Below, piece after piece: positions 2 through 59,490 of a stretch of 64,000 nt of DNA (the first letter of the stretch is position 1; each line of letters starts with the position of its first letter). Source of the stretch: Verrucomicrobiales bacterium (GTDB taxonomy: Bacteria > Verrucomicrobiota > Verrucomicrobiia > Methylacidiphilales > JAAUTS01); contig JAIRPN010000015.1 of assembly GCA_031256975.1 (NCBI GenBank), forward strand, positions 216,648 through 280,647. The letters are read 5' to 3'. A program made the translations under genes and the position numbers. The notes under the pieces are model-generated. The model ran no database searches and was not told the DNA's origin. It saw only the letters and a program-made list of their open reading frames with translations.

Positions 2-640
2 CAAGCTTCCTGGCGCACCAATCCCAAGGCCGCTGGCAAGAGCGGCTGTGGCGGCGACATTGGCACCCATGCACTGATGCAATTGCGCTTCCTCACCGGG
101 CTCGATGTGACCGCCGTTAGCGCCCGCCTGGAAAACTACGTGCCGGGCCGCATGCTGGACGATCACTTCACCACCTATTGCAAACTCTCCAACGGCGGCA
201 AGGCCCTGGTCCGCGCCTCGCAAATCTGCCACGGCCACAAGAACGACCTCGCCATCGAGGTGGTTGGCACCAAAGGCTCGCTGGTCTGGCATCAGGAGGA
301 ACCGGAGGCGGTGACCATCTACCTGCCCGGCCAGCCCGACCGCAAATACTGGCGCAGCGCGGTTAGCGCCAACGACGGTTTCCTCGGCGAGTTGCCCGCC
401 TGGCTGATGGCGGAACCCAAGATCCCGAGCGGCCACGGCGAAGCCTTCCACGATGCTTATGCGCGCCTGCACCGCTTCTTCGAGGCCGATGTCCGCGCCT
501 ACTGGGACGGCAAGCCGTTCCAGAACGACGGCTCCACCTACGCCAATGTTCACGACGGCCGGATGGGCATGGCGTTCATCGACGCCAGTGTCTCCTCGTC
601 GGAAAAGGATGGCGCCTGGGTTGATGTCAGCTTGAAATAA
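2..640 (+). CDS. Gfo/Idh/MocA family oxidoreductase, C-terminal part (5' truncated by window)
   Basis: Frame of ORF 77..640 stays open to base 2 (QASWRTNPKAAGKSGCGGDIGTHALMQLRF...); GDIGTHA motif typical of this family. Confidence 0.8.
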   Translation, partial: QASWRTNPKAAGKSGCGGDIGTHALMQLRFLTGLDVTAVSARLENYVPGRMLDDHFTTYCKLSNGGKALVRASQICHGHKNDLAIEVVGTKGSLVWHQEEPEAVTIYLPGQPDRKYWRSAVSANDGFLGELPAWLMAEPKIPSGHGEAFHDAYARLHRFFEADVRAYWDGKPFQNDGSTYANVHDGRMGMAFIDASVSSSEKDGAWVDVSLK

Positions 641-652
641 AACATCCCTTGC

Positions 653-694
653 AAGAAAGCCGCTAATGACGAGCTCGTCATTAGCGGCTTTCTT
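653..694. terminator. Perfect 42-bp palindrome AAGAAAGCCGCTAATGACGAG/CTCGTCATTAGCGGCTTTCTT containing two inverted TTAGCG words; probable bidirectional terminator
   Basis: Read directly; lies between convergent CDSs ending at 640 (+) and 736 (-). Confidence 0.85.
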
Positions 695-735: not shown

Positions 736-2136
736 TCAGTTCCAGGTTCCGCCCAGTGACTTGATCAATCTCACCGATGCCGAATATTGCAAGCCTTGGA
801 TGCGCACCGCGTCGCGCTGGCTTTGCAAACTGTCGCGCTGGGCGTTGATGACTTCGAAATAATCCACCGTGCCGGTCTTGTATTTCTGTTCGGTCAGCGC
901 GGCAATCTTGTCGGTCTCGACCACCGAGTCGTTGGTGGCCGCGGCCTGCTCGCGGTAGAAACGAATCTGCGACAACGATTCCTCCACGTCCTGGAATGCC
1001 ACCAGCACTTGCTGGCGGTAATCCGCCACCGCTTCGTCATAAGCGGCGCGCGCGGCCTTGAGCTTGGCGGTATTTTCGCCGCCGCTGAAAATCGGCAGCG
1101 TCACCGTGGGACCGAACGACCACACATGCTGCGGCCAGTTGAACAAATCGCTGGTCTCGGCGCTGAGATAACCCGCCTGACCGGTCAGGCTGACCGCGGG
1201 GAAAAATGCCGCGTAGGCCACGCCAATCTCGGCATTGCGCGAAGCCAGCTTGCGCTCGGCGGTGGCGATGTCGGGCCGGCGTTCCAGCAGCGTCGACGGC
1301 AAACCGACCGGGATATCCGGCGGCAGTCCGGCCAGCGGATTCTCCGTCATCTGAAATTGCGACGCCACCTGCCCGCACAGCAAGGCCAGGCTGGTTTCCA
1401 GCTTGGCGCGGGTCGCACGGGTCGAGGCCAGGTCGGCAACCGTGGTCGCCTTTTCATTGCGCGCACGCGACAAATCCACCTCGGAAATCAGCCCCACCTT
1501 GAACCGCTTTTCCTGCAACTCGACCGCCTCGTTGCGGATAGCCAGGGTCTTGTTCAACACGGCGATTTCGCCGTCGATTTCCCGCAAGGCGAAATAGGTG
1601 TTGGCCACGTCGGCGCTGACGCTGAGCATGGTGTTCTGATAGTCGGCGGCGCTGGCCTGGGTCTGCGCCTCGGCGGATTCAAAGGAACGCCGCACCCGGC
1701 CCCAGAGATCGACCTCGTAACTCAGATCGAACGGCACGCTGAATGAGTTGTAAGTCATCGACGGGATTGTTCCGGGGAACGGAATCGGATTATGCGCCGA
1801 GGTGCGGGTGCGCTGCCAGGACGGGTCAAAATTCACCTTCGGGAAAAAATCGGATTCGCTTGAACGCGAGATTGCCCGCGCCTGGTCAAGTCGTGCCAGC
1901 GAGGCTTTCAGGTTCTGGTTGTTGGCGAGCGCCTGTTCTTCCAGCTTGTCGAGTTGTCCGTCGCTGTAAATCTTCCACCAGGGTCCCTTGACCTGGTCGT
2001 CACCGGGCTCGGCTTTTTTCCATCGCCAGTCGGGCGGTGTGTCCACCACCGGGCGCTGGTAATCGGGCCCGACCGCGCAGCCGCCAATGACGAGCAGCGG
2101 CAACAACAACCAAACACGTGATAACAACTGTTTCAT
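736..2136 (-). CDS. Efflux transporter outer membrane lipoprotein, NodT/OprM family
   Basis: ORF 736..2172; MKQLLSRVWLLLPLLVIGGCAVGPDYQRP lipoprotein signal, ALLGQV-like and LLERRPDIATAERKLASRNAEIGVAYAAFFP motifs; start at 2136 fits the signal peptide. Confidence 0.9.
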   Translation of the reverse strand: MKQLLSRVWLLLPLLVIGGCAVGPDYQRPVVDTPPDWRWKKAEPGDDQVKGPWWKIYSDGQLDKLEEQALANNQNLKASLARLDQARAISRSSESDFFPKVNFDPSWQRTRTSAHNPIPFPGTIPSMTYNSFSVPFDLSYEVDLWGRVRRSFESAEAQTQASAADYQNTMLSVSADVANTYFALREIDGEIAVLNKTLAIRNEAVELQEKRFKVGLISEVDLSRARNEKATTVADLASTRATRAKLETSLALLCGQVASQFQMTENPLAGLPPDIPVGLPSTLLERRPDIATAERKLASRNAEIGVAYAAFFPAVSLTGQAGYLSAETSDLFNWPQHVWSFGPTVTLPIFSGGENTAKLKAARAAYDEAVADYRQQVLVAFQDVEESLSQIRFYREQAAATNDSVVETDKIAALTEQKYKTGTVDYFEVINAQRDSLQSQRDAVRIQGLQYSASVRLIKSLGGTWN

Positions 2137-2140
2137 AAAT

Positions 2141-2299
2141 TTATTTCGTCGACCAGACACTGGTCGGGTCACCCTTGTCCGTCGGAATAAAAATCTGCGG
2201 CATGCCGCCGCTTTTCTTCGTCGTATCGGACGTCGCGCAGGACGCCAACAGCAAAACCGCCATTAGCGAACACAACCCGGTGACCCATTTTTCTTTCAT
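2141..2299 (-). CDS. Small lipoprotein (52 aa) within efflux operon
   Basis: Hand translation MKEKWVTGLCSLMAVLLLASCATSDTTKKSGGMPQIFIPTDKGDPTSVWSTK*; LLAS-C lipobox; ATGA overlap with upstream HlyD stop; below the ORF track cutoff. Confidence 0.65.
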   Translation of the reverse strand: MKEKWVTGLCSLMAVLLLASCATSDTTKKSGGMPQIFIPTDKGDPTSVWSTK

Positions 2300-8253: not shown

Positions 8254-10098
8254 ATGCTGCTATTCATGTTGTACCACGCTCATGACGAAGCGGTAAAGCC
8301 AGCCGCAAAAACCATCCCGAAACGCAGCGAGATCGCGGTTAGCGACACCTGGGACTTGTCACATCTTTACGCCGGCGACGAGGCGTGGAATGCCGATTTT
8401 GCCAAATATGAAAAACTTTATCCGCGCTATCTCGAGTTCAAGGGCACGCTAACGACCAGCGCGCAGCGCCTGAAGGAATGTCTGGAGTTCGACCGCGAAC
8501 TCGATTTGCTGGTGGAAAAACTCGGGCATTATGCGTCACTGCGCGGCAGCGAGGACAGCTCGGACAATGCCAACCTTTCCCGCGAAGCGCGTTTCATGCA
8601 CTTGATGACTCTGGCGGCGGAGACGGCCTCGTTCCTCACCCCGGAATTGCAATCCATTCCCGACGCGACCTTTGAGGAATTTCTGCAAAGCCCGCTGTTA
8701 GCGGAGTGGAACATCAAGCTTACTCGCCTGCGCCGTTTCAAGCCGCATGTCTTGTCGGAGAAAGAGGAACGGCTGATGGCGATGGCATCGTTGCCGCTCG
8801 GCGCTTCGCATGAGGCCTTCTCACAGTTGACCAATGTCGACATGAGTTTCGGCCTGATCAAAAACGAGCGCGGCGAGGAAGTCGAATTGTCGCACGGCGC
8901 GTTCTCATCGTTCCTGGTCAAGCGTGATCCGAAGTTGCGCCGCGAGGCCTTCCACCAGTATTACCAGGAATTCGATTCCCACAAATACACGCTAACCGCC
9001 ACGCTGGCGCATTCGGTGAAAACCGGCGTGTTCAATGCCAAGGCGCGCAATTATCCCTCGGCGCGCGAGGCCGCATTGTTCGGCGACAACATTCCGGTTA
9101 GCGTCTACGACAACCTGATCGCCACGGTGAAGAAAAATCTTGGCACATTGCATGAGTATTACGACTTGCGCAAGAAAGTGCTGGGCTTGGCTGACCTGCA
9201 TTTCTACGACACCTACGTGCCGATGGTCGGCAATATCGAGGTCCACACCAGCTTCGACCAAGCTTGCGAGAAAATCCTTTCGTCATTAGCGCCGCTCGGC
9301 GCGGAATATTGCCAAGTGCTCGGCGACGGCTTCGCCAACCGCTGGGTTGACCGTTACGAAACCAAGGGCAAGCGCAGCGGCGCCTTTTCCAGCAGCAGCT
9401 ACAGCAGCCCGCCCTACATGCTGATGAATTACAAGGAGGACGTGTTCTCCGATGTCTACACCCTGACTCACGAAGCCGGACACTCCATGCACTCCTGGTT
9501 CAGCCAGCGCAACCAGAAATTCCAGGATTACAATTACCCGATTTTCCTCGCCGAAGTGGCCTCCACCTTCAATGAGGAATTGCTCACGCATCACCTGTTG
9601 CAGACCACCGGTGACAAAAACATGCGCGCCTATATTCTCAATCGCCAGATTGACGACATCCGCGCCACGCTGATCCGCCAGACCATGTTCGCCGAGTTTG
9701 AAAAACTCACCCACGAAATGGAAGAATCCGGCGAACCGCTGACGCTGGAATCCTTCCGCGCCGTGTACCGCAAATTGCTGGATGAATATCACGGCAAAGG
9801 ACTGGTCATCGACGACGTGCTGGAACTGGAATGCCTGCGCATCCCGCATTTCTACGGCGCGTTTTACGTGTACAAATACGCCACCGGCATTTCCGCGTCA
9901 TTAGCGTTGTCCGAAGGCGTGTTGCAAAACCCTGCCGCTAACCGCGAGCCGTACTTGAATTTCCTCAAGTCCGGCGGCAGCAAATTCCCGCTCGATACCC
10001 TGCGCTTGGCGGGAGTCAACATGTCCAGCCCGGCACCGATCCAGAGTGCGTTGGACCTGTTCAAGCGACGGGTCAAGGAATTGGCGGAATTGTTGTAA
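8254..10098 (+). CDS. pepF: Oligoendopeptidase F family M3 metallopeptidase
   Basis: HEAGHSMHSWFS zinc motif, full-length M3 family. Confidence 0.93.
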   Translation: MLLFMLYHAHDEAVKPAAKTIPKRSEIAVSDTWDLSHLYAGDEAWNADFAKYEKLYPRYLEFKGTLTTSAQRLKECLEFDRELDLLVEKLGHYASLRGSEDSSDNANLSREARFMHLMTLAAETASFLTPELQSIPDATFEEFLQSPLLAEWNIKLTRLRRFKPHVLSEKEERLMAMASLPLGASHEAFSQLTNVDMSFGLIKNERGEEVELSHGAFSSFLVKRDPKLRREAFHQYYQEFDSHKYTLTATLAHSVKTGVFNAKARNYPSAREAALFGDNIPVSVYDNLIATVKKNLGTLHEYYDLRKKVLGLADLHFYDTYVPMVGNIEVHTSFDQACEKILSSLAPLGAEYCQVLGDGFANRWVDRYETKGKRSGAFSSSSYSSPPYMLMNYKEDVFSDVYTLTHEAGHSMHSWFSQRNQKFQDYNYPIFLAEVASTFNEELLTHHLLQTTGDKNMRAYILNRQIDDIRATLIRQTMFAEFEKLTHEMEESGEPLTLESFRAVYRKLLDEYHGKGLVIDDVLELECLRIPHFYGAFYVYKYATGISASLALSEGVLQNPAANREPYLNFLKSGGSKFPLDTLRLAGVNMSSPAPIQSALDLFKRRVKELAELL

Positions 10099-10105
10099 AG
10101 AACAT

Positions 10106-10219
10106 TTCACCGCAGAGACGCGGAGAGCGCAGAGCAGACTTTATTTGGAGTGAGATACCGCTAACACGGAAGCACAAATCCAAAAAAATCTCCGCGTCCT
10201 CCGCGCCTCTGCGGTGAAA
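10106..10219. repeat. Intergenic inverted-repeat element, family A copy 1
   Basis: ttcaccgcagagacgcggagagcgcagag ... ctccgcgtcctccgcgcctctgcggtgaa; central core inverted relative to copies 2 and 4. Confidence 0.85.
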
Positions 10220-10804: not shown

Positions 10805-11241
10805 AACTGCTCGTCGTTAGCGTCGGCAAACCCAAACTCGCGTATGCCAAGAGCGGCGCGGAGGAATACCTGTCGCGGTTGAAACATTATCTGCCGGTCG
10901 ATTGGAAACAGGTCAAGGAGGGCACGGAGGAACAAGAGGGCGAACGGCTGTTAGCGGCCAGCGAAGGCTGTTTCCGCATCATCCTCGACGAACGCGGCGA
11001 TTCCATCACCTCCAAGGCGCTAAGCACCAAATTTGACCAATGGGAACGGCAGGCCGTAAAGACCGCTGCCTTCCTGATCGGCGGCGCCAATGGCCATTTG
11101 CCCGCCACACGCGACCAAGCCGATTGGAAATGGTCGCTCAGCCCCCTGACCCTGCAACACGAACTGGCGCTAACCGTGATGCTGGAACAACTCTACCGCG
11201 CCCAGACCATCCGCCGCGGCGAACCTTATCACCGGGAATAA
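10801..11241 (+). CDS. rlmH: 23S rRNA (pseudouridine(1915)-N(3))-methyltransferase RlmH (GTG start)
   Basis: FLIGGANGH, LSPLTLQHELALTVMLEQLYRAQTIRRGEPYHRE. Confidence 0.95.
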   Translation: MKLLVVSVGKPKLAYAKSGAEEYLSRLKHYLPVDWKQVKEGTEEQEGERLLAASEGCFRIILDERGDSITSKALSTKFDQWERQAVKTAAFLIGGANGHLPATRDQADWKWSLSPLTLQHELALTVMLEQLYRAQTIRRGEPYHRE

Positions 11242-11247
11242 GTTTTT

Positions 11248-11364
11248 TCACCGCAGAGGCGCAGAGAACGCGGAGAGTTTCATTTAATTCGCGGTTCCGC
11301 GTCAGCTGTATCTAATGCCAAAAAACTACATCTCCTCCGCGCTCTCTGCGCCTCTGCGGTGAAA
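11248..11364. repeat. Intergenic inverted-repeat element, family A copy 2
   Basis: ttcaccgcagaggcgcagagaacgcggagag ... cctccgcgctctctgcgcctctgcggtgaa. Confidence 0.85.
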
Positions 11365-11790: not shown

Positions 11791-11858
11791 TTTTACAGGG
11801 AGATCATGGGGAACACAAAGAAATCCAGCTCCGCGATCTTCGTGATCTCCCTGTAAAA
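11791..11858. repeat. Intergenic inverted-repeat element, family B copy 1
   Basis: ttttacagggagatcatggggaac ... cgtgatctccctgtaaaaa. Confidence 0.8.
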
Positions 11859-11859
11859 A

Positions 11860-12447
11860 TTATTTCTCCAGTTCCTGCTCGATAATGTGGAAAACTTTTT
11901 CCGAATATACCATTAACGGATGTGCCGGAAGTGGGATTTTATATTCACGGGCGAACGCTAACCGCGAACTGGTGGCAGGAACAATCATCAAATCCAGCGG
12001 CGTCCAGATGCTGGTGACTTTGAGCTGATTCAAAACTTCTCTGTTAGCGTCCAAGTCACGCAGAAACCCGCTACCGGGACGCATTTGCTTAGCCCCTGCC
12101 AACGGCCAGAGATATGCCATCGCGGTGCCGTGATGTGGGGCGGCGATGCTGATGTAGCGATCGACACGTCGATAACCGCCCAAGTTTTGCAGGTAATAGC
12201 GCGTCGCCAGTCCACCCATGCTGAAACCTATTAGGTCAAACTTGGCATCGAGCCCCAGTGTGGAATCAACATAATTGGCCAGTTGTTGCGCCAGAATGTC
12301 GATGCCAACCTGTCCCCAGCTCGGCGTTAGCGTCGGCGTGTGGGTTTCCCAACCGCGTTCATGCAGCCAATTGGCCATTGGCGACATCTTTTTGCCGCTG
12401 TCCTTGAAACCATGGACCAGAACGACGGGATTTTTCGCGGCAACCAT
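11860..12447 (-). CDS. Alpha/beta hydrolase / lipase-like protein
   Basis: PVVLVHGFKDSG, DLIGFSMGGLATRYYLQNLGG nucleophile elbow. Confidence 0.88.
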   Translation of the reverse strand: MVAAKNPVVLVHGFKDSGKKMSPMANWLHERGWETHTPTLTPSWGQVGIDILAQQLANYVDSTLGLDAKFDLIGFSMGGLATRYYLQNLGGYRRVDRYISIAAPHHGTAMAYLWPLAGAKQMRPGSGFLRDLDANREVLNQLKVTSIWTPLDLMIVPATSSRLAFAREYKIPLPAHPLMVYSEKVFHIIEQELEK

Positions 12448-13170: not shown

Positions 13171-14148
13171 ATGAGCAAAGGACCGATTTCCCAGTTTATT
13201 ACGCATCACTACCGCCACTTCAACTCGGCGGCCCTGGTCGATGCGGCCAAAGGTTATGAAAAGCTGCTGAACGACGGCGGCAAGATGTTCGTGACGCTCG
13301 CCGGGGCGATGAGCACGGCGGAACTCGGCCTGTCGCTGGCGGAAATGATCCGCCAGGACAAGGTGCATGGCATCTGCTGCACCGGCGCCAACCTCGAGGA
13401 GGATGTGTTTAATCTGGTGGCGCACGATTATTACAAGCGCGTGCCGAATTACCGCGACCTAACCCCGCAGGATGAACAGGCTTTGCTCGACAAACACTTG
13501 AACCGTGTCACCGATACCTGCATTCCCGAGGGCGAAGCCATGCGTCGCATCGAGAAGGCCGTATTGGAAGAATGGGTCAAGGCCGACAAGGCGGGCGAGC
13601 GTTTCTTCCCGCACGAATTCATGTACAAGATTTTGCTCGGCGGCAAGTTGAAGAGTGAATACCAGATCGATCCGAAAAACAGTTGGCTATTAGCGGCGGC
13701 GGAAAAGAATTTGCCGATGTTCGTCCCCGGCTGGGAAGACGCCACGCTCGGCAACATGTTTGCCGGCCACGTGATCACCGGTGATGTAAAAAACGTGCAC
13801 ACCGTCCGCACCGGCATCGAATACATGATGTCGCTGGCCGAATGGTACACGACGCTAACCGCGAAGTCCCCGCTCGGTTTCTTCCAGATCGGCGGCGGCA
13901 TTGCCGGCGATTTCCCGATCTGCGTGGTGCCGATGCTGCACCAGGACTTGCAACGCGACAACGTGCCGCTCTGGGCCTACTTCTGCCAGATCAGCGACAG
14001 CACCACCAGTTACGGTTCCTACTCCGGCGCGGTGCCGAACGAAAAAATCACCTGGGGCAAGCTGGGCATCGACACGCCGAAATACATCGTCGAATCCGAC
14101 GCCACCATTGTCGCCCCGCTGATTTTCGCCTACCTGCTCGGCTGGTAG
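13171..14148 (+). CDS. Deoxyhypusine synthase family protein
   Basis: MSKGPISQFITHHYRHFNSAALVDAAKGYEKLL...TLAGAMSTAELG...ICCTGANLEEDVF...QIGGGIAGDFPICVVPML. Confidence 0.92.
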   Translation: MSKGPISQFITHHYRHFNSAALVDAAKGYEKLLNDGGKMFVTLAGAMSTAELGLSLAEMIRQDKVHGICCTGANLEEDVFNLVAHDYYKRVPNYRDLTPQDEQALLDKHLNRVTDTCIPEGEAMRRIEKAVLEEWVKADKAGERFFPHEFMYKILLGGKLKSEYQIDPKNSWLLAAAEKNLPMFVPGWEDATLGNMFAGHVITGDVKNVHTVRTGIEYMMSLAEWYTTLTAKSPLGFFQIGGGIAGDFPICVVPMLHQDLQRDNVPLWAYFCQISDSTTSYGSYSGAVPNEKITWGKLGIDTPKYIVESDATIVAPLIFAYLLGW

Positions 14149-14150
14149 TT

Positions 14151-14273
14151 TTTCACCACAGAGGCGGAAAGAACGCAGAGTTTTTAAAAATTAAGCCGCT
14201 AATGGCGAACCACCATTAGCGGCTTTTGTTTTAATTAAAATTTCTCTGTGTCCTCCGCGTCTCTGCGGTGAAT
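14151..14273. repeat. Intergenic inverted-repeat element, family A copy 3 (interior replaced by a TTAGCG hairpin)
   Basis: tttcaccacagaggcggaaagaacgcagag ... ctctgtgtcctccgcgtctctgcggtgaatt. Confidence 0.8.
14193..14225. terminator. TTAGCG-pair hairpin AAGCCGCTAATGG-cgaacca-CCATTAGCGGCTT followed by T-rich tract
   Basis: 13-bp perfect arms, 7-nt loop; nested in family A copy 3. Confidence 0.8.
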
Positions 14274-15996: not shown

Positions 15997-16461
15997 ATGG
16001 GGAAACGACGAGACGCACGGCTATTGGCGGTGCAATTTTTATATCAGGTGGAAGTGGGCGCCAAGCAGGACTTGGAGGCCAGCCTGGCGAATTTCTGGGA
16101 CACCACCGAGGCGGAACCGGCGCTGCGCAAGCTGGCGGAACCGGCCATCCGCGGCGTGCTGGAACAGTACGATTCACTGAACGAGCAAATCAAGGGTTTC
16201 TCGCAGAATTGGGATTTGAACCGCATGGCGCCGGTGGACCGCAATATTTTGCGCTTGGCGCTGTTTGAAATGCTGCACTGCCCGGACATCCCGCCGGTGG
16301 TATCGATCAACGAAGCCATCGACATCGCCAAGCAGCTCAGCACCGAGGAATCCGGCCGCTTCGTCAACGGCATTCTCGACCGCGCGATCAAGACCCTTGA
16401 CCGTCCCGCCCGTGGTGACGCTAATGACAAGCCCAAGAAAACCAAAAAAGTTAAACAGTAA
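15997..16461 (+). CDS. nusB: Transcription antitermination protein NusB
   Basis: GKRRDARLLAVQFLYQ ... MAPVDRNILRLALFEMLHCPDIPPVVSINEAIDIAKQLSTEESGRFVNGILD. Confidence 0.95.
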   Translation: MGKRRDARLLAVQFLYQVEVGAKQDLEASLANFWDTTEAEPALRKLAEPAIRGVLEQYDSLNEQIKGFSQNWDLNRMAPVDRNILRLALFEMLHCPDIPPVVSINEAIDIAKQLSTEESGRFVNGILDRAIKTLDRPARGDANDKPKKTKKVKQ

Positions 16462-16515
16462 GATCACGGAGGACATAGAGTTTTCTTCACGCTCTCCATG
16501 ATCTCCCTGTAAAAA
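16455..16515. repeat. Inverted-repeat element, family B copy 2 (overlaps nusB stop)
   Basis: acagtaagatcacggaggacatagag ... ctctccatgatctccctgtaaaaa. Confidence 0.7.
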
Positions 16516-16522
16516 TCCGATT

Positions 16523-31991: not shown

Positions 31992-32018
31992 CGCTAACAG
32001 CCAACTTCGCCGTTAGCG
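31992..32018 (-). terminator. TTAGCG-pair inverted repeat CGCTAAC-N12/13-GTTAGCG
   Basis: 7-bp perfect arms in the intergenic gap downstream of the 32031..32489 gene. Confidence 0.5.
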
Positions 32019-33044: not shown

Positions 33045-33104
33045 CTATTTCTCCGTTACGGCGGCCGCTAATGGCGAACCGCCGCTGATTTCACAGTTAG
33101 CGTC

Positions 33105-36962: not shown

Positions 36963-37007
36963 AAACCGCTAATGGCAAGTCACACCACGGCTCGTCGTTA
37001 GCGGTTT
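36963..37007. terminator. TTAGCG-pair hairpin AAACCGCTAA...TTAGCGGTTT plus T-run
   Basis: 10-bp perfect arms; convergent genes; supplies the stop codon of the minus-strand gene. Confidence 0.75.
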
Positions 37008-48315: not shown

Positions 48316-50304
48316 TCACCAATCCTTCTTGTTGTCTTTTTGTGAACCGGATTGATTTTGGTAATTCGGCATCGACATATTATACGGACGTTCCTCGCCT
48401 TTTAAAGAATCCAATGCGGCCTGCGCCTGTTCCTTGCTCATGCCGCCGGGCTGTTGATCCGGGCCGCCTTGCTGCTGTTGCCGGTTGCCGGAATTCTGCT
48501 GATCCTTCTGATCTTTGCCCGGTTGCGGTTTGCCATTAGCGTCCTGCTTTTGCGGTTGGTTCTGGTCCTGCTGTCCCTTGCCTTGCTGGTTTTGTTTATC
48601 CTGCTTGTTTTGCGAATTGTTTTGGTTTTGCTGCTGGTTCTGTTGCGACTGGTTGTTCTTGTCGCCGGAGTTCTGCTGCTGTTGGTTCTGGTCTTGGTTT
48701 TGCTGTTGCTTGTCCTTGTCCGACTGGTTTTTATCCTGTTGGCTTTGGTTCTGCTGCTGTTGCTGATCCTTTTGATCTTTCTGGTCCTGTTTGTCTTTGT
48801 CCTTGTCCTGGTTCTGCTGGGGCGGCGGCAGTTCATTCAGGCGTTTCTGCACAAACTCCATGTTGTATTTGGCGTCCTGGTCCTTCTCATTGAGCTTCAA
48901 TGCGCCCTGGTAGGCCTGCACCGATTGTTGCCAGAGTTTCCGCGTGGCGTCGGGATCGCTCTTTTCCGTGGTCTCGCCGCGACGGTACAAGCTGTTGCCG
49001 TAATTGTAATAGGCCTGGTTTTGTAATTTCAGGTCATCCGCGCTCAGGGCTTTTTGCAAGGCCTCGGAAGCCAGTTGGTAATGGCCAAGTTTGTAGTTGG
49101 CAGTGCCGTAGTCGTAATTCAAAACAGGATCGTCGGGATGCTTGGCCAGTTTGGTTTTGTATTTTTCCACCAGTTTTGCGAATTCCTGCCGGTCCTTGGC
49201 GTTCGGCGCGCTGTTGGCACGGGCGGCCCAAGGCAGGCCAAACATCATCAGCAACATCGCGGTTAGCGCCGCGGCGGATACGGATTTTTTACGGGCAAAC
49301 CACTGGGTCTTGCGTTCGCGGGTCAGGAACTCCGCCGCCAACAGCAACATTCCCGCCGCCAACGGCCAGCCGAAGCGCTCCAGCGGAATCTTTTCCATGC
49401 GGCTGCTCAGCTCCTGCTTGGGAATAATCTGGATCTTGTCGTTGTAAATTTTTTCCACGCCACCGCCGGTGGAACTTTGCAGGGCGTAGGAGCCCCCGGT
49501 GAGCTCGGCGATTTTTTTCAACATGGTTTCATCCAGCCGTGATTTCACAATCTGGCCCTTCTCATCCTTGAGGAAATCCACGCCGCCGCTTTCGTTCGGC
49601 ACCGGAATCAGGTCGCCGGTCGGAGTGCCGATGCCGACAGTGTAAATCACAATACCCTGCGAAGCCGCACGCTTGGCCTCGGCCAGCGCCGAACCCTCCA
49701 AGTCCTCGCCATCGGTCAGCAAAATCATGATTTTTTTGCTGCCCTGCGCCTTGCCCAGCAAATCCTCGCCCGCCCGCATCGCCGTGGCAAGGTCGGTGCC
49801 CGGCACCGGCATCATGTCCGGCGACAAGGTGTCCAGCGATTGCAAAAACATGTCGTAATCCAGGGTCGGCGGGCACATCACGTAGGCGGAACCGGCAAAG
49901 GGAATCAGTGCCAGGCGGTCGCCATCGGCCATGTCCACCAGGTCGCGCACCGCCAGCTTGGCGCGTTCCAGGCGGCTCGGCTTCACGTCCTGCGTCAGCA
50001 TGCTGCGCGACACGTCGATCGCCACCACGATATCAATGCCCTTGCGTTTCACCTCCTGCCAACGATAACCGACCTGCGGCCGTGCCAGCGCAATGAAAAA
50101 ACACGCTAATGACAAAACAAACAAGATGCGTTTCACCAAACGGCGCAGCGGCGAAAAGTTCACCGTTAGCTCCGCCAGCAAATGCCTGGACACAAACGAT
50201 TCCAGCGCCAGACGACGGCGACGGTCCGACCACCAGAAAAAAGCCGCCAACAGCAGGCACACCACCGCGCCGACGTACAACCAAAGCGGGGTCGCGAAAC
50301 TCAT
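48316..50304 (-). CDS. VWA domain plus TPR protein (BatB/BatC fusion) with Q/N/K/D-rich C-terminal tail
   Basis: VWA DIVVAIDVSRSMLTQDVKPSRLERAK; TPR; long low-complexity tail. Confidence 0.92.
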   Translation of the reverse strand: MSFATPLWLYVGAVVCLLLAAFFWWSDRRRRLALESFVSRHLLAELTVNFSPLRRLVKRILFVLSLACFFIALARPQVGYRWQEVKRKGIDIVVAIDVSRSMLTQDVKPSRLERAKLAVRDLVDMADGDRLALIPFAGSAYVMCPPTLDYDMFLQSLDTLSPDMMPVPGTDLATAMRAGEDLLGKAQGSKKIMILLTDGEDLEGSALAEAKRAASQGIVIYTVGIGTPTGDLIPVPNESGGVDFLKDEKGQIVKSRLDETMLKKIAELTGGSYALQSSTGGGVEKIYNDKIQIIPKQELSSRMEKIPLERFGWPLAAGMLLLAAEFLTRERKTQWFARKKSVSAAALTAMLLMMFGLPWAARANSAPNAKDRQEFAKLVEKYKTKLAKHPDDPVLNYDYGTANYKLGHYQLASEALQKALSADDLKLQNQAYYNYGNSLYRRGETTEKSDPDATRKLWQQSVQAYQGALKLNEKDQDAKYNMEFVQKRLNELPPPQQNQDKDKDKQDQKDQKDQQQQQNQSQQDKNQSDKDKQQQNQDQNQQQQNSGDKNNQSQQNQQQNQNNSQNKQDKQNQQGKGQQDQNQPQKQDANGKPQPGKDQKDQQNSGNRQQQQGGPDQQPGGMSKEQAQAALDSLKGEERPYNMSMPNYQNQSGSQKDNKKDW

Positions 50305-55560: not shown

Positions 55561-56478
55561 ATGAAGACGACTAACCATTTAATACTTGTTATCGCCTGCT
55601 CGCTCACGCTGGGCGCCGGCATTGCCTTCGCCCAGGACAGCGCCGCCAATGACGAACTCGTCCGCCTGCGCGCCGAACTCGAGGCCGCCAAGCGCGACAA
55701 TGCCCAGCTCGCCGACGCCAATAAAAAGGCCCGGCAACAAATTACCGACCTGAACAAGGAAGTCGCCTCGTTAAAAGGCGCGCCGGAAAAAGTCGCCGCT
55801 AATGACGAAGCCGCCGAAAAACTCAAGAATCCATGGAAAATGGAAGTCAACGCCGGCGGCAACTATGCCACCGGTAATACCAATTCCTATCGCGGCAACC
55901 TCGGTTTCAAGGCAGTACGGGAAACCGCCATCGACCAGCTGACCCTCAACCTTGCGGGCGAATATGGCAAGACCAGCGACACCCTCGACGCCGAACGCCT
56001 GCTGGCCGAGGCCAATTACCGCCATAACATCGAGGACGACCTGTACTGGCTCGCCAACACCAGTTTCCTGCACGACGGCGTCAGCGGCCTGGATTTCCGC
56101 AACACCATCGGTCCCGGCTTGGGTTATTATTTCATCAAGAACAACACCATCACGCTATTGCTGGAAGGCGGCCCGGCTTATGTCTGGGAGCGCAACGAAG
56201 GCGAGCCGAGCACCAGCAGTGTCCGTGGCCGTGTCGCGCAGGAATTCGACTGGAAATTCACCCCGAACGCCAAACTGTTCGAACGCTGGGAATTCCTCGA
56301 TAACCTGCAAAACGTGCAGGACTGGGTCACCACCCTGGAAGGCGGCATCGAAACCTCGATCACCAAAACCATCAGCCTGCGCCTGAGCGGCCGCTACCAG
56401 TACGACAACGATCCCGCCGTCGACCGCAAAAAAGGCGATTTCACCGCCCTCGGCGCCTTGGTATACAAGTTTGAGTAA
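55561..56478 (+). CDS. DUF481 family outer membrane protein
   Basis: Signal peptide, coiled coil, WKMEVNAGGNYATGNTNSYRGNLGF beta-barrel. Confidence 0.85.
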   Translation: MKTTNHLILVIACSLTLGAGIAFAQDSAANDELVRLRAELEAAKRDNAQLADANKKARQQITDLNKEVASLKGAPEKVAANDEAAEKLKNPWKMEVNAGGNYATGNTNSYRGNLGFKAVRETAIDQLTLNLAGEYGKTSDTLDAERLLAEANYRHNIEDDLYWLANTSFLHDGVSGLDFRNTIGPGLGYYFIKNNTITLLLEGGPAYVWERNEGEPSTSSVRGRVAQEFDWKFTPNAKLFERWEFLDNLQNVQDWVTTLEGGIETSITKTISLRLSGRYQYDNDPAVDRKKGDFTALGALVYKFE

Positions 56479-56484
56479 AATCTG

Positions 56485-56514
56485 ACGCTAACGGTAACAC
56501 CTCACCGTTAGCGT
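56485..56514. terminator. TTAGCG-pair hairpin ACGCTAACGGT-aacacctc-ACCGTTAGCGT followed by T-run
   Basis: 11-bp perfect arms, 8-nt loop, acctttttaa downstream. Confidence 0.85.
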
Positions 56515-56567
56515 ACCTTTTTAACGTTGAGCTTTTGCCCGTCGGGCTTTAGCCTTTCTGCTGCTTT

Positions 56568-57990: not shown

Positions 57991-58076
57991 TTTTACAGGG
58001 AGATCACGGAGAACATGGAGGTTAACGGTGGAGAATTTTAAATTTCTTCGTGAACTCCATGATCTTCCTGTAAAAA
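57991..58076. repeat. Intergenic inverted-repeat element, family B copy 3
   Basis: ttttacagggagatcacggagaacatggag ... ctccatgatcttcctgtaaaaa. Confidence 0.8.
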
Positions 58077-58094
58077 ATGTTTTATTAACAACCC

Positions 58095-58925: not shown

Positions 58926-59377
58926 AGACAGTGGTGCAACGCGTTTCCAGGGCCGAGGTGCGCATCAACGGTGAACCCGCGCGCAGCATTGGCGCCGGAC
59001 TGGTCATTTTGCTCGGCGTGGAACCGGCCGACACGGATGCCGATGCCGCCTGGTTGCTGGATAAAATTCTCAAACTGCGACTGTTCGATGATAACGAGGG
59101 ATTCATGGACTTGTCACTCGGCGACATCGACGGCGAATTGCTGGTCGTCAGCCAGTTCACCCTGTTCGCCAGTACCAAGAAAGGCACCAAGCCTTCTTTC
59201 CACCGCGCCGCCAAACCGGAAATCGCCGTGCCGCTTTATGAATTGTTCGTGCGGCTGGCGCGCAACAGCATCGGGCCGGACAAGGTAAAAACCGGAACTT
59301 TTGGCGCGATGATGTCAGTTGAGCTGGTCAACGACGGGCCAGTGACGCTGATTCTGGATTCCAAGAACAAAGAATAG
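58922..59377 (+). CDS. dtd: D-aminoacyl-tRNA deacylase
   Basis: MKTVVQRVSRAEVRI, LLVVSQFTLFASTKKGTKPSF, GTFGAMMSVELVNDGPVTLILDS. Confidence 0.96.
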   Translation: MKTVVQRVSRAEVRINGEPARSIGAGLVILLGVEPADTDADAAWLLDKILKLRLFDDNEGFMDLSLGDIDGELLVVSQFTLFASTKKGTKPSFHRAAKPEIAVPLYELFVRLARNSIGPDKVKTGTFGAMMSVELVNDGPVTLILDSKNKE

Positions 59378-59381
59378 CTTC

Positions 59382-59490
59382 ATTCACCGCGGAGACGCAG
59401 AGAACGCGGAGATCTTTTTGGTTCACGATTCTGCGTTAGCCGTATCTTGCCCAAATAAAACTCAGCGTTCTCTGCGCCTCTGCGGTGAAT
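59382..59490. repeat. Intergenic inverted-repeat element, family A copy 4
   Basis: attcaccgcggagacgcagagaacgcggagat ... agcgttctctgcgcctctgcggtgaat. Confidence 0.85.

Follow-up and report, generated by a model that had tools for sequence, protein, structure and literature searches.

A predicted two-way transcription terminator formed by inverted copies of a probable DNA uptake word in a genus of the Verrucomicrobiota

In the literature examined, sequence-specific uptake of DNA is placed in two families of the Pseudomonadota only, the Neisseriaceae and the Pasteurellaceae (PMC5031613, PMC7811141), and the question of how and why sequence-tagged uptake evolves therefore rests on two cases. The DUS of the Neisseriaceae is a word of 10-12 nt that occurs in hundreds to thousands of copies and as dialects between related species, and inverted pairs of it form terminators, which in N. 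meningitidis are most frequent between convergent genes (PMC3630211, PMC1852404). The USS of the Pasteurellaceae is a dispersed, asymmetric word with variants in subgroups and with pairs that reside in terminators (PMC1852404, PMC3630211). These traits are shared by the word that we describe here, the consensus of which is about TCRCCRTTAGCGKC. The sequences themselves are unrelated: the DUS is ATGCCGTCTGAA and the USS consists of a core, AAGTGCGGT or ACAAGCGGT, with an A/T-rich extension, whereas the organism studied here belongs to another phylum. Membership in either class was rejected, as the word differs and the organism lies outside both families. Its 16S gene carries the EUB338-III site (ACACCTACGGGTGGCAGC), a target typical of the Verrucomicrobiota. 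For uptake sequences in this phylum there was no report in the literature searched, the scope of which left out preprints and most subscription papers. A last class for comparison is that of the intrinsic bidirectional terminators, with which the locus shares a GC-rich stem, a T-rich tail on both strands and a place between convergent genes; it differs from them in that its stem is built from a dispersed genomic word, present twice.

We analysed a 64-kb stretch of DNA (the window) from an assembly of 2.76 Mb that comprises 19 contigs and is about 87% complete. The features at the locus under study are the following:

2..640, + strand: GFO/IDH/MocA-type oxidoreductase gene, 3' part; stop at 638-640, 12 bp before the palindrome
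653..694, no strand: perfect 42-bp palindrome, proposed bidirectional intrinsic terminator (inverted-repeat match and RNA fold)
653..658, - strand: T-rich tail TTTCTT for - transcripts (sequence)
659..672, - strand: left extended word TCGTCATTAGCGGC, core TTAGCG at 661-666 (motif logo)
675..688, + strand: right extended word TCGTCATTAGCGGC, core TTAGCG at 681-686 (motif logo)
689..694, + strand: T-rich tail TTTCTT for + transcripts (sequence)
736..2172, - strand: OEP (TolC-family outer membrane efflux) gene; stop at 736-738, 41 bp from the palindrome

The inverted repeat, AAGAAAGCCGCTAATGACGAG followed directly by CTCGTCATTAGCGGCTTTCTT, coincides exactly with 653-694 and has arms of 21 bp that are 100% complementary, with a spacer of 0 nt. 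From base composition alone (pair probability 0.254) a perfect arm of this length is expected ~2e-8 times per 64 kb, and the 42-bp palindrome occurs once in the assembly. The two TTAGCG cores (661-666 on the - strand, 681-686 on the + strand) are separated by 14 nt and oriented with their 3' ends away from each other, so that the 5' halves of the words, TCGTCA, meet near the centre. The genes on either side are convergent, because the oxidoreductase gene (+) ends at 640 and the OEP/TolC-family gene (-) at 736. The initial annotation had noted the perfect repeat, the extended motif in each arm and the convergent gene boundary, all of which we recovered. It had also called the repeat loopless, which holds for the DNA and not for the RNA: the fold of 641-712 (-33.8 kcal/mol, z of -7.9 with respect to shuffles) and that of the other strand (z of -5.6) are both hairpins with a 4-nt loop. 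The locus has a stable hairpin immediately downstream of a stop codon and a U-rich tail on both strands, like an intrinsic bidirectional terminator; the tails, TTTCTT on each side, are short and interrupted and weaker than a T run. The orthologous boundary was not found in the related genomes G003-G005, where the OEP homologues have different neighbour genes and the palindrome is absent, and a search of Rfam returned weak matches to eukaryotic miRNA hairpins only, all below the gathering score.

The word that makes up the arms is dispersed. The window contains 161 copies of TTAGCG, where 23.3 are expected (0 of 100 shuffles reached 161), and the 1.24 Mb (45% of the genome) over which the word and pair statistics were taken contain 2223, where 347 are expected. 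The logo from -6 to +7 reads T C (G/A) (C/T) (C/G) (G/A) TTAGCG (G/T) C, and GTCATTAGCG, one of the motif's two strongest 10-mers, has 158 copies in the 1.24 Mb against 1.3 expected. The abundance is that of an uptake sequence, in which a word of 9-14 nt recurs hundreds to thousands of times, well beyond chance expectation. The placement also agrees, being strand-neutral and tolerated in genes: + and - counts are about equal in contigs of opposite GC skew, and 1733 of the 2223 copies lie inside genes according to approximate gene calls, mostly in the codon phases that read xTT-AGC or xCG-CTA. This preponderance of copies inside genes sets the word apart from the DUS. Spacing between copies is uneven (CV 1.56). 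The gene calls stem from our own script and cover ~77% of the sequence, and the distances to gene ends given below are therefore approximate.

Inverted pairs of the form CGCTAA-N13-16-TTAGCG number 34 in the 1.24 Mb, against 4.2 under random placement (maximum 11 in 1000 placements) and 9.3 under shuffling of orientation (maximum 19 in 2000). The spacing of pairs with outward 3' ends peaks sharply (20 at 14 nt and 10 at 15 nt, with ~1 each expected), and the opposite arrangement yielded 0 pairs at 13-16 nt; the preference for outward 3' ends with 14-15 nt between the cores is another difference from the DUS. Enrichment of inverted pairs at gene ends throughout the genome had been named in the initial annotation as a check, and it was found: 24 of the 34 pairs lie at most 60 bp 3' of a stop codon, as do 2.8% of random sites. 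Divergent pairs that are 13-30 nt apart occur at gene 3' ends in 35 of 64 cases, against 1 of 29 for close pairs of the opposite arrangement (Fisher 6e-7).

The pairs at gene ends have T-rich tails and A-rich heads and those inside genes have neither, the mean number of T in the 10-nt tail being 5.1 and 2.6, respectively. For the USS, Kingsford and colleagues had to consider such tails as a by-product of the motif (PMC1852404). Here they are not, because this motif lacks an A/T extension; in this respect, too, the word differs from the DUS. The arms of the gene-end pairs moreover agree beyond the word, with 4.21 matches in the inner 6 nt against 3.44 when shuffled (reached in 0 of 5000) and 3.09 matches in the outer 6 nt against 2.49 (reached in 4 of 5000). 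The excess is absent from in-gene, opposite-arrangement and wide pairs, and its restriction to gene ends fits selection on the stem, as expected. Further pairs within the window are:

14184..14234, no strand: pair, spacing 13, with A/T tails, downstream of a + gene
31992..32018, no strand: pair, spacing 15, adjoining the end of a - gene
33066..33102, no strand: pair, spacing 25, intergenic
36967..37003, no strand: pair, spacing 25, at a convergent boundary
56476..56523, no strand: pair, spacing 16, ~7 bp after a + gene

The window contains other repeats as well. An imperfect inverted repeat of ~125 bp (TTCACCGCAGAG... / ...CTCTGCGGTGAA) is present in four copies, at 10095-10218, 11236-11363, 14141-14272 and 59372-59489, and constitutes a separate dispersed family; another inverted-repeat family (TTTTACAGGGAGATC... 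/ ...GATCTCCCTGTAAAA) has three copies, at 11791-11860, 16451-16516 and 57991-58077. Positions 48466-48824 form a degenerate CTG/TTG-rich stretch of 11 overlapping copies of ~41 nt, which may encode a Gln-rich repeat on the - strand.

Four congeners, whose fragmented genomes were covered in part, carry a dialect of the word that differs by one base, TCAGCG, with TCACCGTCAGCGG in place of TCRCCRTTAGCGKC. The 12-mer TCRCCRTYAGCG was counted in five congeneric genomes (G000-G004) and has 811, 1247, 1046, 1451 and 1011 copies, against at most 6 for its reversed control; in the two other genera of the family the count is 7-8, and each of 281 non-congeneric genomes of the class has at most 92. Homologous coding sites were compared in codon alignments (96 gene-genome pairs, 72% DNA identity, overlapping loci deduplicated): at 75 of 154 sites TTAGCG is replaced by exactly TCAGCG in the sisters and at 3 of 154 it is unchanged, so that related species have a changed word at homologous places, as is the case for uptake sequences. 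The T of GTT/ATT codons is kept in 1 of 35 cases before AGCG, against 152 of 424 elsewhere (Fisher 9e-6). The exchange of T and C falls mostly on a silent codon position; copies in the GCT-AAY phase are the exception, where Asn becomes Asp and 6 of 21 sites are switched, and since this phase gives Asn here and Asp in the sisters, the word shapes protein sequence. The sister species share the architecture of the pairs in their own dialect, for example AAAAAAGCCGCTGACGATGGCAGTCATCGTCAGCGGCTTTTT, and some of these are textbook two-way terminators (L149). Each congener has 41-62 inverted pairs in its own dialect (0-1 in the control), an excess of close pairs over chance that we estimate at only ~2-fold, since the higher GC content of their DNA makes TCAGCG common. 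Samples of 35-80 kb from other families of the order contained no comparable word. GAGGGTG, considered as another word in G005, which belongs to the same family as the window genome, and in G010, was discarded: its flanks are only 3-base-periodic and it looks like codon bias.

Five long word-poor stretches, which were chosen as the longest gaps and not by an independent sign of foreign origin, are poor in GC (0.45-0.52 against 0.547 overall). The proteins from four of them include: glycosyltransferases, ABC and HlyD transporters, a desaturase and a metal P-type ATPase. These gaps, picked by length alone, resemble the scarcity of the DUS in recently acquired genes (PMC2397512).

With respect to competence, the genome encodes: ComEC, DprA, two PilB/GspE, PilC/GspF, two PilT/PilU and 25 pilin-like N-termini. 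ComEA was not found in the ~87% complete assembly, the best HHH_3 match being a 770-aa, Tex-like protein with an S1 domain that was rejected as a candidate, nor was a DNA-binding pilin that could serve as DNA receptor identified there. All 11 genomes in which ComEC was sought have it, whether they contain the word or not, and its presence therefore does not explain the restriction of the word to one genus.

The terminator might be genuine and the uptake function not, in which case the word would bind a chromosomal protein (a nucleoid organiser, a repair or Chi-like factor, or one for segregation) and the pairs would be co-opted or bound by a dimer. A motif that is long, asymmetric and present at thousands of sites also fits a protein-binding site, and the occurrence of ComEC does not follow that of the word. 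Oriented sites such as Chi and KOPS, however, show a bias for strand or replichore; the word has none, and we discarded a site of this kind given the about equal counts on both strands. Moreover, one and the same base sets the sister lineage apart at half of the homologous sites, and the longest of the gaps checked contain loci for glycosyltransferases, transport and metal efflux. Both findings resemble published patterns of uptake sequences (PMC3630211, PMC2397512), and we consider a chromosomal-protein site unlikely.

The hairpin could further be an ordinary intrinsic terminator that contains the word merely through its genome-wide frequency, without special use of the pairs. TTAGCG is indeed common (1.8 per kb), and perfect stems of at least 8 were found at 67 of 500 gene ends examined, 47 of which strong hairpins lack the word in both arms. 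Against this, the 20 of 67 that do have the word in both arms include all five stems of at least 16, whereas 2000 intragenic controls gave 7 hairpins with 0 of 7 of this type, and at 13-16 nt the pairs are 8 times as frequent as under random placement, which holds for a single arrangement, with a concentration at gene ends; such an ordinary terminator appears very improbable. Less credible still is an origin of the pairs from a palindromic mobile repeat (REP/BIME- or MITE-like) that settled 3' of genes, for which the many dispersed inverted repeats at gene ends and their preferred spacing could be adduced. The copies do not share sequence across a whole element, for which reason these classes were rejected: beyond the word, the arms, centres and flanks differ between copies and vary together within a copy, and single words far outnumber pairs and sit in genes in preferred codon phases.

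The reading of 653-694 as a two-way transcription terminator of two convergent genes is well supported by the sequence evidence, because the pairs are enriched, lie at gene ends, have T/A tails and show arm matching that is specific to gene ends. The same features (24 of 34 pairs at gene ends, T-tails, A-heads and extra arm complementarity) speak for the bidirectional terminator predicted in the initial annotation, and its analogy with DUS and USS gains from the dialects, the strand neutrality, the word-poor islands and the restriction to one genus. Taken together, the abundance of the word, its indifference to strand, the switch of dialect, the islands poor in it and the reuse of its pairs are best fitted by a DNA uptake sequence like the DUS and USS, and we infer that this is most likely how the word functions. 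On the basis of that analogy and of the literature that places uptake in two families only, the word stands outside DUS and USS by sequence and lineage and yet is likely to work in a similar way. The combined reading, a bidirectional Rho-independent terminator made from inverted copies of a word that is most likely a DNA uptake sequence, we judge to be clearly probable.

According to the mechanism that we propose, the terminator common to the two convergent genes would have arisen from a dispersed word of 12-14 nt, present here in two inverted copies. This word (TCRCCRTTAGCGKC here, TCACCGTCAGCGG in the sisters) would be a self-tag preferred by a transformation machine of type IV pilus and ComEC, and through this preference biased uptake and recombination would have spread it through the genome. 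Because so many copies exist, mirrored neighbouring words would arise readily, and those beside stop codons would be retained as terminators and elaborated with a longer stem and T/A tails.

On balance it seems rather likely that this genus of the Verrucomicrobiota independently evolved a complete system of uptake sequences, with a word of its own, TTAGCG/TCAGCG dialects and inverted-pair terminators. If this is true, sequence-tagged uptake would have a third case of independent origin, in which the dialects of congeners are cleanly separated by a single base, and on which the model of biased uptake could be tested. That terminators made of inverted pairs recur would then show this side use to be a predictable consequence of uptake sequences. 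The word could then also offer a handle for the transformation of Verrucomicrobiota.
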